From positions 4,601,800 through 4,665,799 of the forward strand of contig NZ_CP037920.1 in NCBI RefSeq assembly GCF_007748195.1: a stretch of DNA of 64,000 nucleotides, in the 5' to 3' direction. This DNA comes from Gimesia aquarii. GTDB lineage: Bacteria > Planctomycetota > Planctomycetia > Planctomycetales > Planctomycetaceae. Shown here one piece after another: positions 34,676-44,092 of the stretch (position 1 is its first letter; every line of letters starts with the position of its first letter). The translations under genes were made by a program, and so were the position numbers. The notes beneath the pieces were generated by a model. That model searched no databases. It had not been told where the DNA came from and saw only the letters and a program-made list of their open reading frames with translations.

Positions 34676-35103
34676 GCTAATCAATTTCTTCAGATCGCGT
34701 TTTGGTGTGTTTCGTTCGGCGGGAGAGATTCTTACGAATTCTGGCCTCATCACTAGGTTTTTCAGGAAATAATAATTTCTGAATTCCATATCGAGCAGAT
34801 ATGCAATCGACTCGATATGGGCAATAAGGTAAGCCTCTCTGATTTAATTGAACAGGTCCTAAAGAATGATTCTCAAAAAAACATTTGATTCTCAGAACTT
34901 TGGGCTCACAATAGCTATTCAATTCCTTCGGGAATACTAACCCGACCCAACATTCCACAATGGTTTTTACTCATGCACATAGGATTAATCACTACGTATT
35001 CGGGAGAAAAACGACTGTGGCAAACGGTGCCGTCGTCATCCACTCAGCTAAAGGTAGAAAACTCATCGCGGATAATGTGAATAAAATCAGAAAAATTCGA
35101 TTT
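34676..35103. other. Intergenic region without recognisable gene
   Basis: About 430 bp between the DUF3592 gene and the end of the zinc-ribbon membrane gene. A 93-codon minus-strand frame (34677-34958) has no recognisable domain and no ribosome site and is not supported. No repeat or clear hairpin was noticed. Confidence 0.5.
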
Positions 35104-36186
35104 TTAGAACTCATGTTCGGTCACTTCTAATGGTTCATGTCGAAATTGCTCCTCTACTCTACGCTGGATTTCATCCGTACGAATTCGCGAGCGGTAAAAC
35201 CAAAGTGTCAAAAATACGATCACCGCATTAATACTGCCACAGAGGAAGCCCCCTTGTAAACCGCCAATTGCCAAACCCCCAATAATAAATGCAACCACAA
35301 AGAGCATCACATCCAGTAATCCCGATCGAAAAACTTTTTTTATTTCCTGTTTGGTAGACTCATAATTATCGTACTTATAAATAGCATAAAAGAAAGTAAT
35401 CAAGGTCCCCTCGCATACTCCTAACAAGATAGATACTGGAATCCATTTTTCATGACTCGTAATGAGCGACAGAGTGTATCCCACTGCCGCACCTGTAAGA
35501 ATTCCAACAATCGCTCCCAATCCACTCAAGATGGGAACTTTCCAGTGACATGGAGGGGCATTACGGGGGATTCCTGAAAGCGTAAGAAAAGAATACCAAT
35601 GGTCCAGCATTTCAGTTGAATGGCCGCAAGCAATGCGTTTTTCAGGCGTCAGAATGACGATTCCCTGACGCAATCCAGTCAGCATACAAAGTTCGTCATC
35701 GAAGGTACTACCAAGAAACCAGTTACATTCTGACAACGGTACTTCTTGTACTTTCTGAATTGTTTGAATGACAAGTTGCTTTTTATTGACTAATACCGTT
35801 CGTGGGAGGTTTGCGCGAAGAAAAGGCATTCCAATCAGTGCCTTCAGAAGAAGTAGTACTATGCAACCACTACTGAAAAAAGTAAAAACAAAAATAAACT
35901 CTGCAAGATCAGCTTTCCCAGCAAAAACGAACAGCAAATATAGCACAAGAAATAACAGAAACAGAAAGTTTAAAAGCATCCTGCCATAATTCATGACGTA
36001 ACGAAGAACACTTACGTCATATTTAGCAACCACATCTACAAGACGACCACCATCGATCACAAAGTGATAAAACTCGGGTGAAACGTCCTCGACACATTTG
36101 CGACAATAGAGATGATCATCCCATAGTTTAATTGCATCACCGGAAATGGGATCAGAACAGTAATGACAGCGATCCGATTCGATCAA
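35104..36186 (-). CDS. Zinc-ribbon polytopic membrane protein, paralogue B
   Basis: The 360-residue product starts at TTG (36186), which sits 5 nt behind a perfect AGGAGG; no suitable ATG exists nearby. The N-terminus is a zinc ribbon of CxxC-x16-CxxC type (CHYCSDPISG, LYCRKCVEDVSPEF). Membrane segments follow near 75-125, a PH-like beta region near 128-205 (LPRTVLVNKKQLVIQT, ACGHSTEMLDHWYSFL), and more membrane helices near 215-335. The neighbouring gene at 36273-37343 encodes a protein of the same architecture, clearly a tandem paralogue. No function is recognised. It is the last gene of a six-gene run. Confidence 0.72.
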   Translation of the reverse strand: MIESDRCHYCSDPISGDAIKLWDDHLYCRKCVEDVSPEFYHFVIDGGRLVDVVAKYDVSVLRYVMNYGRMLLNFLFLLFLVLYLLFVFAGKADLAEFIFVFTFFSSGCIVLLLLKALIGMPFLRANLPRTVLVNKKQLVIQTIQKVQEVPLSECNWFLGSTFDDELCMLTGLRQGIVILTPEKRIACGHSTEMLDHWYSFLTLSGIPRNAPPCHWKVPILSGLGAIVGILTGAAVGYTLSLITSHEKWIPVSILLGVCEGTLITFFYAIYKYDNYESTKQEIKKVFRSGLLDVMLFVVAFIIGGLAIGGLQGGFLCGSINAVIVFLTLWFYRSRIRTDEIQRRVEEQFRHEPLEVTEHEF

Positions 36187-36272
36187 ACAAACCTCCTGTT
36201 GGACTGTTTTGAATAGATTTACCCGATAAGTAAAACAGTGGTTCGAGTTGTCAGAAAAAAAGTTAACTGTTT

Positions 36273-37343
36273 TTACCGTTCGATCTCGCTCAATTCAATA
36301 AGTTGACGCTGTACCAACCCTGTTACTTCAGTATCGCCCTGAAGTTCTCTATTCTCAATCCATGACCGGCAACACCAGGCCACGATGACTCCTAACACTC
36401 CATTAATACCACCACAGATAAGGGCAGGCAAAGGACCAGCAAAAATACACACTTTGACCCCAATGATCAGGAAGGCACCACCAAGAAAACCGGGATGTAA
36501 TCTTTTATGAGCCGCTTTTGCTCCATAGGAAGTATAATAAGCATAATTAAACGCCGTACCAAATCCATCGAAAGTACCAAGGAACTGCATCGCGAACGGC
36601 CAAAGGGGATCATTCGTAAAGAGTGCAACAATATGCCCCACACACCATCCTGCTAGAAAACCTATCAATGTTCCTGCAATAGAAATCAATAAGATGCGCA
36701 ATGCATCCCAATACGACTTTCGCCGAACCCCCGCCAGTATCAGAAAGGCTCCCCAATATTTCAACATTTCAGGTGAATGGCCACAGCTTATGAAGGCCCC
36801 AGAATGATTGATCGTAATTCCCTTCTGAAGTCCCGTGAAATAGGTAAGCCCATCTCGATCAATCCCGCCGAATTTCCACTTACACTCAGCCAGCGGGAAT
36901 CGAATTTCGTCCTGTGGTCTGATCACCAACAACTGACCAGATTCTACAGTCACTGTTCGGGGCAGAGAACGACGATGGCTCGCGAGTAACAATTTAAGAA
37001 ATATGTAACCAAGGACAAAACCACCACAGAAAAAGGAACATCCAATTAAAAGATCAATCTTGGCATTCACCTTATCCATATTTGCGAGCACCAGAAACGG
37101 TAACATAAAGATAATAAAGGCCACCGCTACTGTTTTTTTGCCCGCACCTTTGAAATATTTCTTGAGGCTGATATCAGACTTTTCGACTGTCTCTTCGAGC
37201 CGACCACCGTTAGTTACAAATTCAAAAAGCTCGGGCGAAACGTCTTTCACACATTTGCGACAATAGACACGATCATCCCACAACGTCACTGCTTCGCCAG
37301 AGACGGGGTCAGCACAATACGGACAGTAGGCGGGTTTGTTCAA
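36273..37343 (-). CDS. Zinc-ribbon polytopic membrane protein, paralogue A
   Basis: I place the start at TTG 37343, 6 nt behind AGGAGG, giving 356 residues starting MNKPAYCPYCADPVSG. This mirrors the start of its paralogue at 35104-36186. An ATG at 37382 would add 13 residues and put the AGGAGG inside the gene. The order matches the paralogue: zinc ribbon (CPYC...YCRKCVKDVSPELF), two membrane helices, PH-like region (LPRTVTVESGQLLVIRPQDE, SCGHSPEMLKYWGAFLILAG), then glycine-rich membrane segments. No function is recognised. The 86-bp gap to paralogue B suggests one transcript. Confidence 0.72.
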   Translation of the reverse strand: MNKPAYCPYCADPVSGEAVTLWDDRVYCRKCVKDVSPELFEFVTNGGRLEETVEKSDISLKKYFKGAGKKTVAVAFIIFMLPFLVLANMDKVNAKIDLLIGCSFFCGGFVLGYIFLKLLLASHRRSLPRTVTVESGQLLVIRPQDEIRFPLAECKWKFGGIDRDGLTYFTGLQKGITINHSGAFISCGHSPEMLKYWGAFLILAGVRRKSYWDALRILLISIAGTLIGFLAGWCVGHIVALFTNDPLWPFAMQFLGTFDGFGTAFNYAYYTSYGAKAAHKRLHPGFLGGAFLIIGVKVCIFAGPLPALICGGINGVLGVIVAWCCRSWIENRELQGDTEVTGLVQRQLIELSEIER

Positions 37344-37436
37344 ACGAACGCCTCCTGACATGCTGTTCTTTACTGAAGTCATTGCTATTTACGATTATAG
37401 AAATATCTTAATGCAAAACATTACTTTCCATAAAAA

Positions 37437-37673
37437 CTAATCGCCGCCTATTTCCTCTTCCTGCGTTTCAACCTCCTTCGCTTCCGTCACGTGCTCGCTT
37501 GAGGGGTTCACTATGCGGTCCATCTCGACCATCATTCCAACGATCCCGCCAGAACCTGCACCTGTACTTCCTTCATGGTCATACAGGTCCTTCACACACC
37601 GGACAAGAATTAAGGGTATCAACAATAAGAACAAGACGAGTACCACAATCATGATCAGATCGAATGGCTGCAT
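37437..37673 (-). CDS. Small single-pass membrane protein
   Basis: The ATG at 37673, 7 nt behind GGAG, gives 78 residues. A hydrophobic helix occupies about residues 5-27 (LIMIVVLVLFLLLIPLILVR). A Gly/Ser-rich stretch (GSTGAGSGGIVG) and an acidic tail rich in Glu follow. The extension upstream to 37787 is rejected because it overlaps the preceding gene and has no ribosome site. No family is recognised. It is the fourth gene of the six-gene run, 40 bp after the glycine-zipper gene. Confidence 0.65.
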   Translation of the reverse strand: MQPFDLIMIVVLVLFLLLIPLILVRCVKDLYDHEGSTGAGSGGIVGMMVEMDRIVNPSSEHVTEAKEVETQEEEIGGD

Positions 37674-37713
37674 AAGTTGACTCCCTGGCCATTTGACAAA
37701 TGAGATTAGATCA

Positions 37714-38016
37714 TCAGCCACTGACTTCCGATTCGCGAATCTCCTGCTGTTTCCGGTTGCAATAACGAATGGCAACGGGCAGCCCAATTCCGTACGGAAT
37801 CCAGAGCAAGTGCTTATAAGACACTGGCAAGAGAAACATCAGTGCAATAAACGTTAAGATGATCGTCCACAAGATCACAGACATCTGGATCATCAACGAT
37901 TTTTCCCGCGGACCATTCGTATTTTTAATACTGAACCAGGTGCCGATTGCACCGCCCATAAAGCCAATGACCGTGCCACCAATACCGCCAATCAAGCCAA
38001 TTGTTGCAGGATCCAT
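37714..38016 (-). CDS. Small membrane protein with glycine-zipper N-terminus
   Basis: The ATG at 38016, 9 nt behind GGAGG, gives 100 residues. The first helix (residues about 5-24, TIGLIGGIGGTVIGFMGGAI) repeats glycine every third or fourth residue, a glycine-zipper pattern that favours close helix packing or oligomerisation. Two further hydrophobic segments lie near 43-63 and 70-85. No family is recognised. It is the third gene of the run and lies 35 bp after the SUFU-like gene. Confidence 0.65.
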   Translation of the reverse strand: MDPATIGLIGGIGGTVIGFMGGAIGTWFSIKNTNGPREKSLMIQMSVILWTIILTFIALMFLLPVSYKHLLWIPYGIGLPVAIRYCNRKQQEIRESEVSG

Positions 38017-38051
38017 TGTGTGTGTCCTCCACTGAATATCATTTGAAATTC

Positions 38052-38699
38052 TCAAACAACCGGATCGCGATCCAAATCCGAATAGGGATAATGGCCCGCC
38101 TTTTTTAATCGTTTAATCAAGCTGTTACCACCTTTTTTTCGAGCATAGTTCATCTCTCTCCGAAATACCTCAATCACGACCATCATACCAAAAGAATTCA
38201 GCTCACTATCAGAAAACGAACCATAGCGATCAAAGATCAAACATTTCCCCCCGATTTCTTCCATATCCTCTGGAAATTCGCAGGTTTCAGCAGGATTTAA
38301 CGTCGCCTGTGCACTGTAGGGGGCAACCACATTCAGGATAGCTTTGAGATGATGATGTATTTGCCCGAAACTGGTGCTCTTATCAAGCGCCTCTTCAAAA
38401 GAAAATTTCTCTCTAGTAAACATCACAAGTTCATAACAGTCAAAAAAATCATTCCTGGAACCTTTTCCAGGCAGAGTTGACAACTCTTTGGTAGCAATCC
38501 CCACTCCTTCAATTCCATTTGGATAATAATACCCATGGAGCGCACCTCCCACCGCATAGGGAATCAAAGAATGCATCACCATGTCATGCTCTTTGCCCAA
38601 TACATGTTCCATCAGATTGCTTTTCTCTTCATACCACTGCTCAGCAGCAGCTTCATCAGATGTTTCGCGTGAGAAAATTCTCTTAATCCAGTTCCACAT
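38052..38699 (-). CDS. Soluble protein resembling suppressor-of-fused (SUFU) domain
   Basis: The ATG at 38699 gives 215 residues with no signal or membrane segment. The order GVGIATKELSTLPGKGSRND, CYELVMFTREKF, a helical stretch (LDKSTSFGQIHHHLKAILNV) and then a strand region (GKCLIFDRYGSFSDSELNSF) resembles bacterial SUFU-domain proteins, but the similarity is loose and other uncharacterised families could fit. Bacterial SUFU proteins are often immunity or regulatory partners. It lies between the RDD gene (20 bp) and the glycine-zipper gene (35 bp) in the same run. Confidence 0.6.
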   Translation of the reverse strand: MWNWIKRIFSRETSDEAAAEQWYEEKSNLMEHVLGKEHDMVMHSLIPYAVGGALHGYYYPNGIEGVGIATKELSTLPGKGSRNDFFDCYELVMFTREKFSFEEALDKSTSFGQIHHHLKAILNVVAPYSAQATLNPAETCEFPEDMEEIGGKCLIFDRYGSFSDSELNSFGMMVVIEVFRREMNYARKKGGNSLIKRLKKAGHYPYSDLDRDPVV

Positions 38700-38719
38700 C
38701 GTTACATTTCCAATGCTGG

Positions 38720-39301
38720 CTAAACTGACTCGTTCTCTTTCGATGACATTTTCTGATCGAACTGTTTTGGTCGTGTCACACGTTGATAAACATAGATAAA
38801 GCCTAAAGCACAATAATTGGCAAGATGAATTTCAGAGCGTCCCTGTGGCGCGGAGTTTTTCTTAACAACACAAGTCCCTGCAAAACGGTCGGTCAGCGAC
38901 TGGCGATCTTCATCAACAGCAGACCACATTAGATCGTAGATATAATTAAACGACATAAAAGTGCTGAGCAAAAGACGATATGTCATTCGAAATACAGAAG
39001 GCTTATTTCCTCTAAGATTGACAATCTTCGAATTGGTCACCCAATAACCAACTGTCCGAATTCTTGAAGCTCTGACAACAGTCAGATAACCCCAAACACA
39101 AAATAACCAGATCCAAATGGGAGTCTCACTCACATAATCACCTGTCAGCAAGTCATGGACTATCGTGATCAATGCCTGTAATAAAATTAACACAGTTACA
39201 TCAACCATAAAAATGATAATCCGGCGCATGATCCCAATATAATCATCGGAGGTAAAGTAGACACCTTCACCCAAAGATCGATCATGTTGATATTCGGGCA
39301 T
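38720..39301 (-). CDS. RDD family membrane protein
   Basis: The ATG at 39301, behind AGAGGATC, gives 193 residues. The RDD signature pieces are present: RRIIIFMVDVTVLILLQALI (Arg then Asp in the first helix), RTVGYWVTNSKIVNLRG, and DEDRQSLTDRFAGTCVV. RDD proteins are integral membrane proteins proposed to move ions or small solutes; most are uncharacterised. It is the first gene of the six-gene minus-strand run and ends 20 bp before the SUFU-like gene. Confidence 0.82.
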   Translation of the reverse strand: MPEYQHDRSLGEGVYFTSDDYIGIMRRIIIFMVDVTVLILLQALITIVHDLLTGDYVSETPIWIWLFCVWGYLTVVRASRIRTVGYWVTNSKIVNLRGNKPSVFRMTYRLLLSTFMSFNYIYDLMWSAVDEDRQSLTDRFAGTCVVKKNSAPQGRSEIHLANYCALGFIYVYQRVTRPKQFDQKMSSKENESV

Positions 39302-39509
39302 GCAAATTGATCCTCTAAAAAGCAAATTATCTGTCAAAACCAGATCACTTCGACCAGAAACATACATCTCAATAGAGTACATGCCATCAGGCTAATGTGC
39401 AAACTCATAATAAGCCTCTGATTACCGTTCCTACTTGACTTCACACTCATACCGGCTTCTAATAAATTTTGTTTAAGCGCTATATGCATACGAAAGAAGG
39501 ACCGACGAA

Positions 39510-41768
39510 ATGGAACAGCAAACCTATTCTTCTATAAAAAATTACTTCTTGGGGATTGCCTCCTTTTTATTCTATTTCATCAGCCCACTCATTTCAGAAG
39601 CCATCGAGAATCAGTCGACAGAGGTAAAAGCAAAACAAAACGCCAGTGTCTTACTTACACAAAGCCTCGATCGCGCGAAACAACTCGCACACAAAACGAC
39701 AATCTACCGAGACACGTACGGCGTACCACACGTCACAGGGCCAACCGATGCCAGTGTGGTCTTTGGTTTTACCTATGCTCGTGCGGAAGACGAGTTTCAA
39801 AAAATCCAAAAAAGCCTGCTCAGCGGAATGGGACGTTCCGCAGAATTAATCGGACCAGGCGGATTTCCGATTGATCGTCTGATGCGCATCAACGAAGTTC
39901 CGAAGCACGCAAAGGCCGAATTCGCAGCCACTGACGATGAATTCAAAACTATTCTGATCGCCTATGCCGATGCGCTCAATTACTACGTCGCGAATCACCC
40001 CGAAGAGCAACCTGTACTCATAAGGCGGTTCGAACCGTGGCATCTGCTGGCAGCCAGTCGAACCATGAATCTCGCTTTATTGACAAAGAGTCCAGAATAC
40101 CGGCACCTGTTAAAAGTGATGAAACAACAGGCAGACTCGAAAAAGAACAAAACCAAATTGCCAGAACCAAAACCAAAGGAGGAACAAGATGGCTCAAACA
40201 TGTGGGCCATCGGTCCCAATCGCAGTGCCACCGGAAACGCAATGCTGCTGATCAATCCTCATATCCCGCTCAACGAAGTCTATGAAGGGCATCTGAACAG
40301 CGAAACCGGTTTGAATATTTCAGGTGGTTTCGCATACGGTAGCTTCCTGTTTCCCTTTGCTGGGCACAACGAAAAACTGGGATGGAGTCTGACGGTCAAC
40401 TACCCGGATATCGTGGATGTCTATGTGGAATCATTTAATCATCCCCAGAATCCCTTAAAGTATCGTTTTAACGACCAATGGCTGACAGCGGAGACCTGGA
40501 AAGAGACGATTAAAATCAAGCAAACCAATGGAACATTGATCGAACAGGAGATCACCTGTTTAAAAACTCATCATGGACCTGTCTTGATTCTTTCTGACAA
40601 GAAAGGCTATGCGATTCGCACGGCAATGATTCGTGAGGGAGGCATGCCACAGCAATTCTATCAAATGGCAAAAGCCAAAAACCGCAATGAATTCCAGGCA
40701 GCGGTTTCAAAACGCGCGCTGGTCTTTCACAACATCATGTATGCCGACGTTGAAGGAAACACGTGGTACGTCTACAACTCGGCAACGCCCCGACGCGATC
40801 CAACAATCGATTGGACCAAACCAGTCCCCGGTAACACATCTGCAACAGAATGGGCGGGCTACCACGCACTGCATGAACTACCACAGGTTCTGAATCCGCC
40901 ATGTGGCTGGATGCAGAACTGTAATTCATCTCCGTTCACGACATGTACAATGAAAGAAAGTCCGCAGCGTAAGAAATACCCTCGCTATTTAGGCCATCGA
41001 GATCAGGACAACAACCGAGTCAAAATCTCAAAGAAGATCTTGTCCGGGAATGACAAATTTACTTTTGACACATGGTCTGACGCCGCCTGGGACACTCACG
41101 TAAATGAAGCTACCACCTGGATTTTAGGCATGTCGAAAGCTCTCTCATCCATCGAAAGTGAAACCACAAACCAGCGACATTCTCAACTGGCGAAATCCGT
41201 CAAACCATTAGTCGACGAACTCAAGTCTTGGGACCAGCAATGTAAACAAGATTCTGTAGCGTCAACACTGTTTCATTTATGGTATGAAAAAATGGGACGA
41301 AGAATTCAACGAACCAAACCAAACGACATCGCAACGCTTGAAGTGTTCAATGGAGTAAAACAAGATTTAGAAAACAAGTTTGGTGATTGGCGTATTGAAT
41401 ATGGCGAAGTGTTTCGGCATCAGCGCCCCGACAGAGCAGGGCAGTTGGCTGGCGATACAGGAAAGAGTTTTCCTCTTGCCGGAGGTCACCCTCGAGTCGG
41501 AATGGTTTTTACGCATCTGTCGCGTGAAATTCCCGGTTCAAAAAAGAGATATGGTTTTCACGGCCATTCCTACGTCAGCGTGATCGAATTTGATCCTGAT
41601 GGAATTCGGTCCAGATCGATTGTGCCTTTTGGACAAAGCACAAATCCAAAGTCACCTCATTATCTGGATCAGGCACCGCTCTATGCAAACGGTCAATTCA
41701 AACCGGCCTGGTTTACGATGGACGAAGTTCGCAAGAACACCAGCGGGTCTTATCATCCGGGAGAATAG
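39510..41768 (+). CDS. Penicillin acylase family protein (Ntn hydrolase)
   Basis: The 752-residue protein has an N-terminal leader and hydrophobic segment (about 10-30) for export. The alpha-chain start is TIYRDTYGVPHVTGPTDASV, then FGFTYARAEDEFQ. The autocleavage site is GSNMWAIGPNRSATG, where Ser229 would become the N-terminal nucleophile. The beta chain has later motifs FLFPFAGHNEKLGWSLTVN and LAGGHPRVGMVF. Family members cleave penicillins, acyl-homoserine lactones or other N-acyl compounds in the periplasm. The substrate cannot be chosen from sequence. It is a single gene that converges with the esterase gene. Confidence 0.92.
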   Translation: MEQQTYSSIKNYFLGIASFLFYFISPLISEAIENQSTEVKAKQNASVLLTQSLDRAKQLAHKTTIYRDTYGVPHVTGPTDASVVFGFTYARAEDEFQKIQKSLLSGMGRSAELIGPGGFPIDRLMRINEVPKHAKAEFAATDDEFKTILIAYADALNYYVANHPEEQPVLIRRFEPWHLLAASRTMNLALLTKSPEYRHLLKVMKQQADSKKNKTKLPEPKPKEEQDGSNMWAIGPNRSATGNAMLLINPHIPLNEVYEGHLNSETGLNISGGFAYGSFLFPFAGHNEKLGWSLTVNYPDIVDVYVESFNHPQNPLKYRFNDQWLTAETWKETIKIKQTNGTLIEQEITCLKTHHGPVLILSDKKGYAIRTAMIREGGMPQQFYQMAKAKNRNEFQAAVSKRALVFHNIMYADVEGNTWYVYNSATPRRDPTIDWTKPVPGNTSATEWAGYHALHELPQVLNPPCGWMQNCNSSPFTTCTMKESPQRKKYPRYLGHRDQDNNRVKISKKILSGNDKFTFDTWSDAAWDTHVNEATTWILGMSKALSSIESETTNQRHSQLAKSVKPLVDELKSWDQQCKQDSVASTLFHLWYEKMGRRIQRTKPNDIATLEVFNGVKQDLENKFGDWRIEYGEVFRHQRPDRAGQLAGDTGKSFPLAGGHPRVGMVFTHLSREIPGSKKRYGFHGHSYVSVIEFDPDGIRSRSIVPFGQSTNPKSPHYLDQAPLYANGQFKPAWFTMDEVRKNTSGSYHPGE

Positions 41769-42714: not shown

Positions 42715-43089
42715 ATGACCGCCATGCCTAGATCACCAACAACAACCGACGCTTTTAATGCCATTGCGGAAGAACGTAGGCGCGAGATCATCCATCATCT
42801 GGCAGGCCAGGAGCGTTCTGTGAATGACCTGGTGGACTCGATGGGTGTGGCACAACCACAAGTATCGAAACATCTTCGCGTTTTGCGCGAGGTGGGACTC
42901 GTGAATGTGAGACAGGACGGAAAACACCGCTGGTACAGCCTCAACGCCAGACAGCTAAAACCAGTTTTTGACTGGGTACAAACATTTGAACGATTCTGGG
43001 ATCACCAGTTGGCTGGAGTCAAAGCACTTGCTGAGGCTAAGGCCAAAGCAGCGAAACAAGAGAAATCCAAGAAAGAGAAAGAAGGGTAA
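42715..43089 (+). CDS. ArsR family transcriptional repressor
   Basis: The 124-residue protein is a winged helix-turn-helix repressor of the ArsR/SmtB superfamily: AFNAIAEERRREIIHHLAGQ, the recognition helix in MGVAQPQVSKHLRVLREVGL, the wing DGKHRWYSL, then a Lys-rich tail. It has no cysteines for metal sensing, as in the subgroup that pairs with AHSA1-type proteins. The 18-bp palindrome abuts its start. The SRPBCC gene begins 7 bp after its stop, so they are one transcript. The inducing signal is unknown. Confidence 0.93.
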   Translation: MTAMPRSPTTTDAFNAIAEERRREIIHHLAGQERSVNDLVDSMGVAQPQVSKHLRVLREVGLVNVRQDGKHRWYSLNARQLKPVFDWVQTFERFWDHQLAGVKALAEAKAKAAKQEKSKKEKEG

Positions 43090-43095
43090 CCAAAC

Positions 43096-43545
43096 ATGGT
43101 AACAGCAGCAGATCAAAATCAAACATCGTTACATATCGAGCGCACTATCGAAATTGCCGCGCCGATTCAACTGGCGTACGAATCGCTACTCGAACAATTG
43201 GGACCTGCTTCCAAAATGCCGGATGGAACTCCTTTGCCTATGAAACTGGAAGCGTGGCCCGGCGGACGCTGGTTTCGCGATCTTGGAGAAGGGACAGGGC
43301 ATTTCTGGGGAACAGTGCAGGTCATCAAGCCCCCCACCTTAATCGAAATCAATGGGCCACTCTTCATGTCTTATCCGGTCATGTCACATATGCAATACCG
43401 GCTCATCGAAAAAGGTGAAGCCACCACACTACAGTTCCTGCATCAGGCCATTGGAAATATTGATCCCTCACATGCAGAACATGTGACTCCTGGCTGGGAA
43501 TACCAGTTAGGCCAAATCAAACAACGTGCTGAAAAATCAGCTTAA
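43096..43545 (+). CDS. SRPBCC/AHSA1-type protein
   Basis: The 149-residue protein has the SRPBCC fold: LHIERTIEIAAPIQLAYESL, the EAWPGGRWFRDLGEGTGHFW strand pair, LIEINGPLFMSYPVM, and a C-terminal helix after HVTPGWEYQLGQIK. It is the AHSA1-like partner that typically follows this kind of ArsR repressor. It probably binds a small hydrophobic ligand or acts on one; the ligand is unknown. GAAGG lies upstream, and the DinB gene follows 35 bp later. Confidence 0.86.
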   Translation: MVTAADQNQTSLHIERTIEIAAPIQLAYESLLEQLGPASKMPDGTPLPMKLEAWPGGRWFRDLGEGTGHFWGTVQVIKPPTLIEINGPLFMSYPVMSHMQYRLIEKGEATTLQFLHQAIGNIDPSHAEHVTPGWEYQLGQIKQRAEKSA

Positions 43546-43579
43546 AAACCCCTTATAAAACAGAATCAGGAGATTATTT

Positions 43580-44092
43580 ATGACAACACAACAACAAACC
43601 CCCTCAATTGTAGAACACGCTGCGGAACAACTGCCTCGCTCTCGTAATTTTTTACTTGGACTACTGGAAACGTTATCTGATGACCAATTACACGTGCGTG
43701 CTGGTGGAGCAGGGAACCATGCCCTGTGGGTGATGGGCCACGTCGCTTATGCGGACGACTTGTTCGTTTCATTATTTTGCAATGAACCCAGTTGTTTGCC
43801 GGAAGGACACACCGAGTTGTTTATCAACGGAACGACTCCCAGTGACAACCCTGCCGACTATCCCGACCGTGAAGAATTATTGAAACGGATGGAAACTGCC
43901 CGCACCAGACTGATTAAGTGGGCTCAGAGTTTAGAAGGCGATGCCATTTGGCAGGCATCCCCGGAAGAAATCGCGCAGATTGCCCCTGATGCAATCACTG
44001 CCGTACACACATTAGCACAACATGATTTTGTGCACGGCGGTCAAATCGCCACAATTCGAGCAACACTCGGCATGGAACCAGTCTTTGCTTAA
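43580..44092 (+). CDS. DinB family protein
   Basis: The 170-residue protein has the four-helix DinB/YfiT-like fold. The metal-binding histidines are the expected ones: the His in GGAGNHALWVMGHVAYADDL and two more in HTLAQHDFVHGGQIATIRAT. DinB-like proteins include thiol-dependent S-transferases and putative detoxification enzymes. AGGAGA lies 7 nt before the ATG. It sits between the AHSA1-like and DUF899 genes in the ArsR-led cassette, which suggests a detoxification or stress role. Confidence 0.88.
   Translation: MTTQQQTPSIVEHAAEQLPRSRNFLLGLLETLSDDQLHVRAGGAGNHALWVMGHVAYADDLFVSLFCNEPSCLPEGHTELFINGTTPSDNPADYPDREELLKRMETARTRLIKWAQSLEGDAIWQASPEEIAQIAPDAITAVHTLAQHDFVHGGQIATIRATLGMEPVFA

Follow-up and report, generated by a model that had tools for sequence, protein, structure and literature searches.

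What kind of system is formed by six closely spaced minus-strand genes, most of which encode uncharacterised membrane proteins, in the planctomycete Gimesia aquarii? The genes occupy positions 35104–39301 of a 64,000-nucleotide stretch (hereafter the window; assembly GCF_007748195.1, contig NZ_CP037920.1, positions 4,601,800 to 4,665,799). The original prediction suggested that the proteins may assemble into one membrane complex, with the soluble SUFU-like member as its cytoplasmic partner. Comparison across the genus leads to a different answer. The locus is a site where genes for small membrane proteins, most of them uncharacterised, come and go, duplicate and replace each other one at a time. 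We propose, at a probability of about one in three, that it is a polyimmunity-like exchange site of protective membrane proteins.

The gene calls themselves are reproduced: six minus-strand open reading frames separated by 20, 35, 40, 93 and 86 bp, five of whose products are membrane proteins by hydropathy (no helix in the SUFU-like protein, at least one in each of the others). The features are listed below; c4 and c1 are genes found intact at the same locus in related genomes.

38720..39301, minus strand: RDD-family membrane protein, 193 amino acids (PF06271 match)
38052..38699, minus strand: SUFU-like soluble protein, 215 amino acids (PF05076 below cut-off)
37714..38016, minus strand: glycine-zipper membrane protein GZ, 100 amino acids (family alignment, profile matches)
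37674..37713, minus strand: 40-bp gap at the usual place of c4, which lies here in 14 of 16 mapped genomes
37437..37673, minus strand: ACID, one-helix membrane protein with a conserved acidic tail, 78 amino acids (family alignment)
36273..37343, minus strand: zinc-ribbon polytopic protein ZnR-A (TTG start after AGGAGG)
35104..36186, minus strand: zinc-ribbon polytopic paralogue ZnR-B (TTG start after AGGAGG)
34995..35114, minus strand: c1 remnant of 40 codons, a seventh, broken gene whose ATG overlaps the ZnR-B stop by 11 nucleotides

The zinc-ribbon starts are best placed at TTG 37343 for ZnR-A and at TTG 36186 for ZnR-B; an in-frame ATG at 37382 would shrink the 93-bp gap to 54 bp. The six genes are real, because they are under purifying selection between species (ratio of nonsynonymous to synonymous divergence, dN/dS, mostly 0.07–0.5). 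GZ, ACID, ZnR-A and ZnR-B have no Pfam or NCBIfam assignment, and Pfam, PHROGs and PADLOC give no function for GZ, ACID, ZnR, c1, c4 or the membrane protein M16 introduced below (NCBIfam likewise, for the window proteins). An Rfam search of the window gave no match. Promoter and terminator scans did not exceed shuffled controls and carry no information on transcript borders.

We mapped the locus in 16 of 17 Gimesia genomes by homologue searches refined with tblastn; the remaining genome (G015, 74% complete) gave no match. The window's genome, G000, is a single contig of 7.397 Mb. In all genomes with good coverage, the array sits at the same place in the chromosome. The order between the flanks is RDD, then SRPBCC and M12 (optional), M16 or SUFU-like, GZ, c4, ACID, a DMP19-like gene (optional), and ZnR and/or c1. 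Where the flanks are complete, the site lies downstream of an isochorismatase-like gene, bPH genes, a beta-lactamase-like gene and a methyltransferase gene, and upstream of a DUF3592-like gene, VOC, DUF4291, an alpha/beta hydrolase gene and further shared genes (names other than bPH were given by inspection, without a family search). In the window (genome G000) and in G002, the left flank is replaced by other genes, including one for a penicillin amidase. A tRNA-associated island was considered and ruled out, as the window contains no tRNA.

The content of the site varies. ACID is intact in all 16 mapped genomes. c4, a membrane protein of about 100–136 amino acids, is intact in 14 (none in G000 and G004), as is c1 (a remnant in G000, none in G002). 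GZ is present in 13 (none in G003, G004 and G010), and RDD is intact at the locus in 11, with remnants in G001 and G016 and a displaced copy in G010. M16 is intact in eight genomes and a remnant in G007 and G014. ZnR is intact in six and a remnant in G002 and G011, and G000 alone has two copies. The SUFU-like gene occurs in three genomes only (G000, G002 and G009). The DMP19-like gene, which fills a further slot, also occurs in three (G002, G005 and G009). M16 and the SUFU-like gene, which are unrelated, share the one interval between RDD and GZ and never occur together. GZ, c4, ACID and c1 are the steadiest members. The clustering is non-random, since GZ is at the locus in 13 of 16 mapped genomes with ACID shortly downstream every time.

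Against this background, the window version is not the ancestral unit, because c4 is missing, c1 is cut to 40 codons and ZnR carries the only duplication in the genus; in addition, the SUFU-like gene sits in the M16 slot. The c4 of G002 lies exactly at the position of the 40-bp gap between GZ and ACID in the window, and the extended match of the c1 remnant contains three TGA and two TAG codons. The array of G000 is a late, derived, partly broken version, not a standard six-part machine.

Divergence within the locus is also uneven, indicating that the locus is a mosaic, because allele divergence jumps from gene to gene. With the background of synonymous divergence (dS) taken from the flanking genes only, most genes of the close quartet G001, G004, G008 and G012 have a dS of about 0.06–0.2; c1 of G012 differs from the rest of the quartet by 1.1–1.3, and the intact RDD genes of G004 and G012 differ by 0.39. 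Between G000 and G002, dS is 0.02–0.03 for RDD and the SUFU-like gene, 0.20 for GZ, 0.74 for ACID and 0.10–0.41 for the other shared genes. Identity between these two genomes in 250-base bins is about 98–99% over 38001–39500, 82% in 37501–37750 and 98.8% in 37251–37500, with a sharp step near 37750. Past about 37218, ZnR of G002 no longer matches the window, and the DMP19-like gene comes next. The gene trees of RDD, GZ and c1 conflict with those of the flanking genes. The c1 gap between G012 and its close relatives might be read as allele replacement, but the tree shows old paralogue classes of c1, which makes it likely that differential loss has contributed alongside exchange.

Two gene pairs overlap at conserved junctions. 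The overlap of c4 with ACID measures 1 or 4 nucleotides (TAATG, TGATG) in nine genomes, and that of ZnR with c1 is exactly 11 nucleotides in G000 (where c1 is the remnant), G005, G007, G013 and G014. These overlaps are the strongest evidence for an operon. c4–ACID and ZnR–c1 are translationally coupled and probably act as pairs. The window has lost the c4–ACID pair, and its ZnR–c1 pair is broken.

We consider the locus as described so far very likely to be correct. It bears directly on the proposed six-protein complex. The same strand, the short gaps and an order partly conserved within the genus speak for a single complex, and a core of GZ, c4 (where present) and ACID does keep its order at the same site across Gimesia. 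However, the full six-gene set is found in one genome only, ZnR is intact in six of 16, and the window lacks intact c4 and c1, which are commoner in the genus than the SUFU-like gene or ZnR. The SUFU-like protein, the supposed cytoplasmic partner, is present in three of 16 genomes, and eight others fill its slot with the unrelated membrane protein M16. Outside the genus, GZ, ZnR and c1 are found separately. GZ occurs class-wide as a stand-alone gene without steady neighbours. ZnR turns up here and there within the same family, with the best matches in G240 and G156, and has no GZ, ACID or c1 alongside. Full-length relatives of c1 occur alone in a few planctomycetes, and its many weaker matches cover a short C-terminal motif only. 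A fixed multi-subunit complex fits poorly, because the genes turn over one by one, and we regard it as highly improbable.

Polyimmunity loci offer a closer parallel. Such loci are described as runs of closely packed genes on one strand that hold no toxin gene and differ between closely related strains, and SUFU is among the superfamilies that provide immunity in polymorphic toxin systems (Zhang et al. 2012, PMC3482391). The Gimesia array is likewise same-strand, with short gaps, mosaic divergence, exchange slot by slot, content that varies between close relatives and one SUFU-like member, and is likewise without a recognised toxin gene as judged by family matches and gene maps. In the mechanism that we propose, each protein, alone or with one partner, would serve in the inner membrane as a protective factor that can be exchanged for another. 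Several unrelated proteins would be made from a single polycistronic message, and each would blunt a different attack by neighbouring bacteria on membrane or DNA, so that selection would favour frequent single-gene exchange rather than a fixed complex. Rhs core proteins, one or more each, are found in 13 of the 17 Gimesia genomes.

Several observations weigh against this reading. Where heterogeneous polyimmunity loci carry several known immunity superfamilies, the window has the SUFU-like protein alone. Most Gimesia members are membrane proteins without an immunity assignment: RDD, GZ, c4, ACID, ZnR and c1 are outside the known immunity families, and DMP19 is not named in the text of PMC3482391. 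No Rhs core protein was detected in the whole genome of G000. No tRNA marks the site in the window, and no recombinase is seen in the gene maps of the loci. ACID, with its conserved tail in 16 of 16 genomes, looks like a housekeeping partner rather than an exchangeable immunity protein, and differential loss of old paralogues could account for some of what is seen in c1. We do not claim membership of the polyimmunity class, since the majority of the proteins have no recognised immunity role and no Rhs core protein is detected in G000.

The two proteins with family matches were compared with their profiles. The SUFU-like protein scores 22.1 bits with PF05076, below the cut-off of 25, although it covers nearly the whole profile (positions 26–171 of 172). 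The copies in G002 and G009 score 21.8 and 23.3 bits, also below the cut-off, and a relative in G050 scores 33.9 bits, above it. We therefore name the window protein SUFU-like and, judging by these scores, do not count it as a member of the SUFU family. No toxin lies beside the Gimesia copies. The AlphaFold2 model of the SUFU-like protein, from an alignment of four sequences only, has a predicted local distance difference test score (pLDDT) of 40, too low to be of use, and a sequence search of solved structures with the SUFU and ZnR profiles gave no meaningful match. RDD shares the profile of its family above the cut-off (PF06271, 56.9 bits versus 24.1). In PADLOC, no known anti-phage defence system is matched by the array; the one similarity is that of the RDD part to the C-terminal region of PD-T4-6 (E 4.5e-6, profile positions 337–475 of 476).

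GZ has relatives in a different setting. Profile matches in long frames place a GZ domain on the C-terminal side of seven sigma factors of the extracytoplasmic function (ECF) type from several planctomycete genera. Five (L161, L171, L172, L173 and L174) contain Sigma70 regions 2 and 4 in addition to GZ, and two (L170 and L175) contain region 4 only in the partial frame read. HMMER E values of the fusions range from 1e-18 to 1e-4. In hhalign, GZ and the ECF-fused domain match with 99.2% probability (E 1.6e-19) over 100 columns, indicating homology over the full length of the domain; the alignment takes in the SI.NT..P.ER loop and the C-terminal NR..I.. segment. On this sequence evidence, GZ is the free-standing version of a membrane module that sigma factors use; the Gimesia protein, of 100 amino acids, lacks Sigma70 regions 2 and 4. 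C-terminal membrane extensions of ECF sigma factors in other groups have been reported as built-in regulators (PMC8999054). No report of a link between GZ and sigma factors was found in the literature searched, which left out the main ECF classification papers. Three polytopic proteins of about 300 amino acids (L176, L177 and L179) end in the first half of a GZ domain.

ZnR and ACID also have features of interest. In ZnR, C20, C23, C41 and C44 are invariant. The AlphaFold2 model (mean pLDDT 67, about 60–86 in the domain blocks) shows a zinc ribbon, two transmembrane helices, a domain of six strands that ends in a helix (residues 142–217) and four further transmembrane helices. In Foldseek, PH domains rank first (SSRP1, centaurin, Rtt106). 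The top match, the SSRP1 middle domain, has a probability of 0.98 with an E value of 0.15, and for this reason the PH-like domain that ZnR probably holds between its membrane helices is a lead, not a result. The model resembles bacterial PH-domain membrane proteins in its six strands and C-terminal helix, but ZnR has no bPH match in Pfam and adds the zinc ribbon and four further helices. G008 and G009 share another locus that carries ZnR relatives (L081, 5178–6119; L082, 5798–6820) without other array genes. In ACID, the family alignment shows a drifting membrane helix and an almost fixed C-terminus, DRIVNP..HV.EAKEVE..E..GG[DE], which looks like a binding or recognition motif. A scan of 84,980 species with two short patterns found five ACID loci, apparently all in already mapped genomes (G003, G005, G006, G010 and G011) and none clearly outside Gimesia; since the scan missed other known Gimesia copies, absence elsewhere is unproved.

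Could these parts form a signalling or envelope-stress module? GZ, as a detached ECF membrane part, would together with ZnR–c1 and ACID sense the state of the membrane and hold a cytoplasmic regulator there, with the zinc ribbon and PH-like domain of ZnR facing the cytoplasm. The GZ–ECF homology, the precedent of built-in membrane regulators, the zinc-ribbon and PH-like parts of ZnR and the motif-like tail of ACID are consistent with such a module. However, no ECF gene is recognised in the mapped Gimesia loci, the GZ profile finds the locus copy alone in each Gimesia genome, stand-alone GZ has no steady partner outside the genus, and the PH match of ZnR is weak. We consider the module somewhat unlikely. 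A broader version, in which GZ, ACID and coupled ZnR–c1 hold and release the regulator while the exchangeable slots (SUFU-like, M16, DMP19-like, RDD) adapt it to signals or toxins particular to each species, is appreciably less probable still. A site without a common purpose would account for other features of the data. At a permissive, transcribed site, short genus-specific membrane genes would originate, duplicate and degrade, their functions being weak and unrelated to one another; remnants are indeed common (of RDD, M16, ZnR and c1), members found elsewhere have unrelated surroundings, and most belong to no known family. But the intact copies are under purifying selection, ACID is kept in all mapped genomes with its almost fixed tail, and the 11-nucleotide and 1–4-nucleotide overlaps are conserved. 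This explanation, too, we judge to be on the unlikely side.

Other genes near the array also differ between genomes. The penicillin amidase gene (window 39510–41768) diverges from the array and is found in the genus only in G000, G002, G003 and G010; in G003 and G010, it lies more than 20 kb from ACID. A three-gene cassette of two conserved proteins and an ArsR-type regulator (window 42715–44092; L072, L078, L079 and L080) differs in its position in the locus by Gimesia species and is always oriented opposite to the array. G004, G008 and G012 have gained a response regulator and histidine kinase pair immediately downstream of the locus (L069, L073 and L077).

The comparison charts a rapidly changing chromosomal site in a genus rich in uncharacterised genes, and names its conserved core, ACID with c4 and ZnR with c1. 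An anonymous family of 100-residue proteins, GZ, is now tied to the membrane domain of ECF sigma factors. No extended polyimmunity loci from planctomycetes were reported in the 2012 survey (PMC3482391). If conflict drives the exchange of genes at the Gimesia site, the locus would be of a polyimmunity-like kind made up mainly of membrane proteins, from a phylum for which that survey listed no extended examples.

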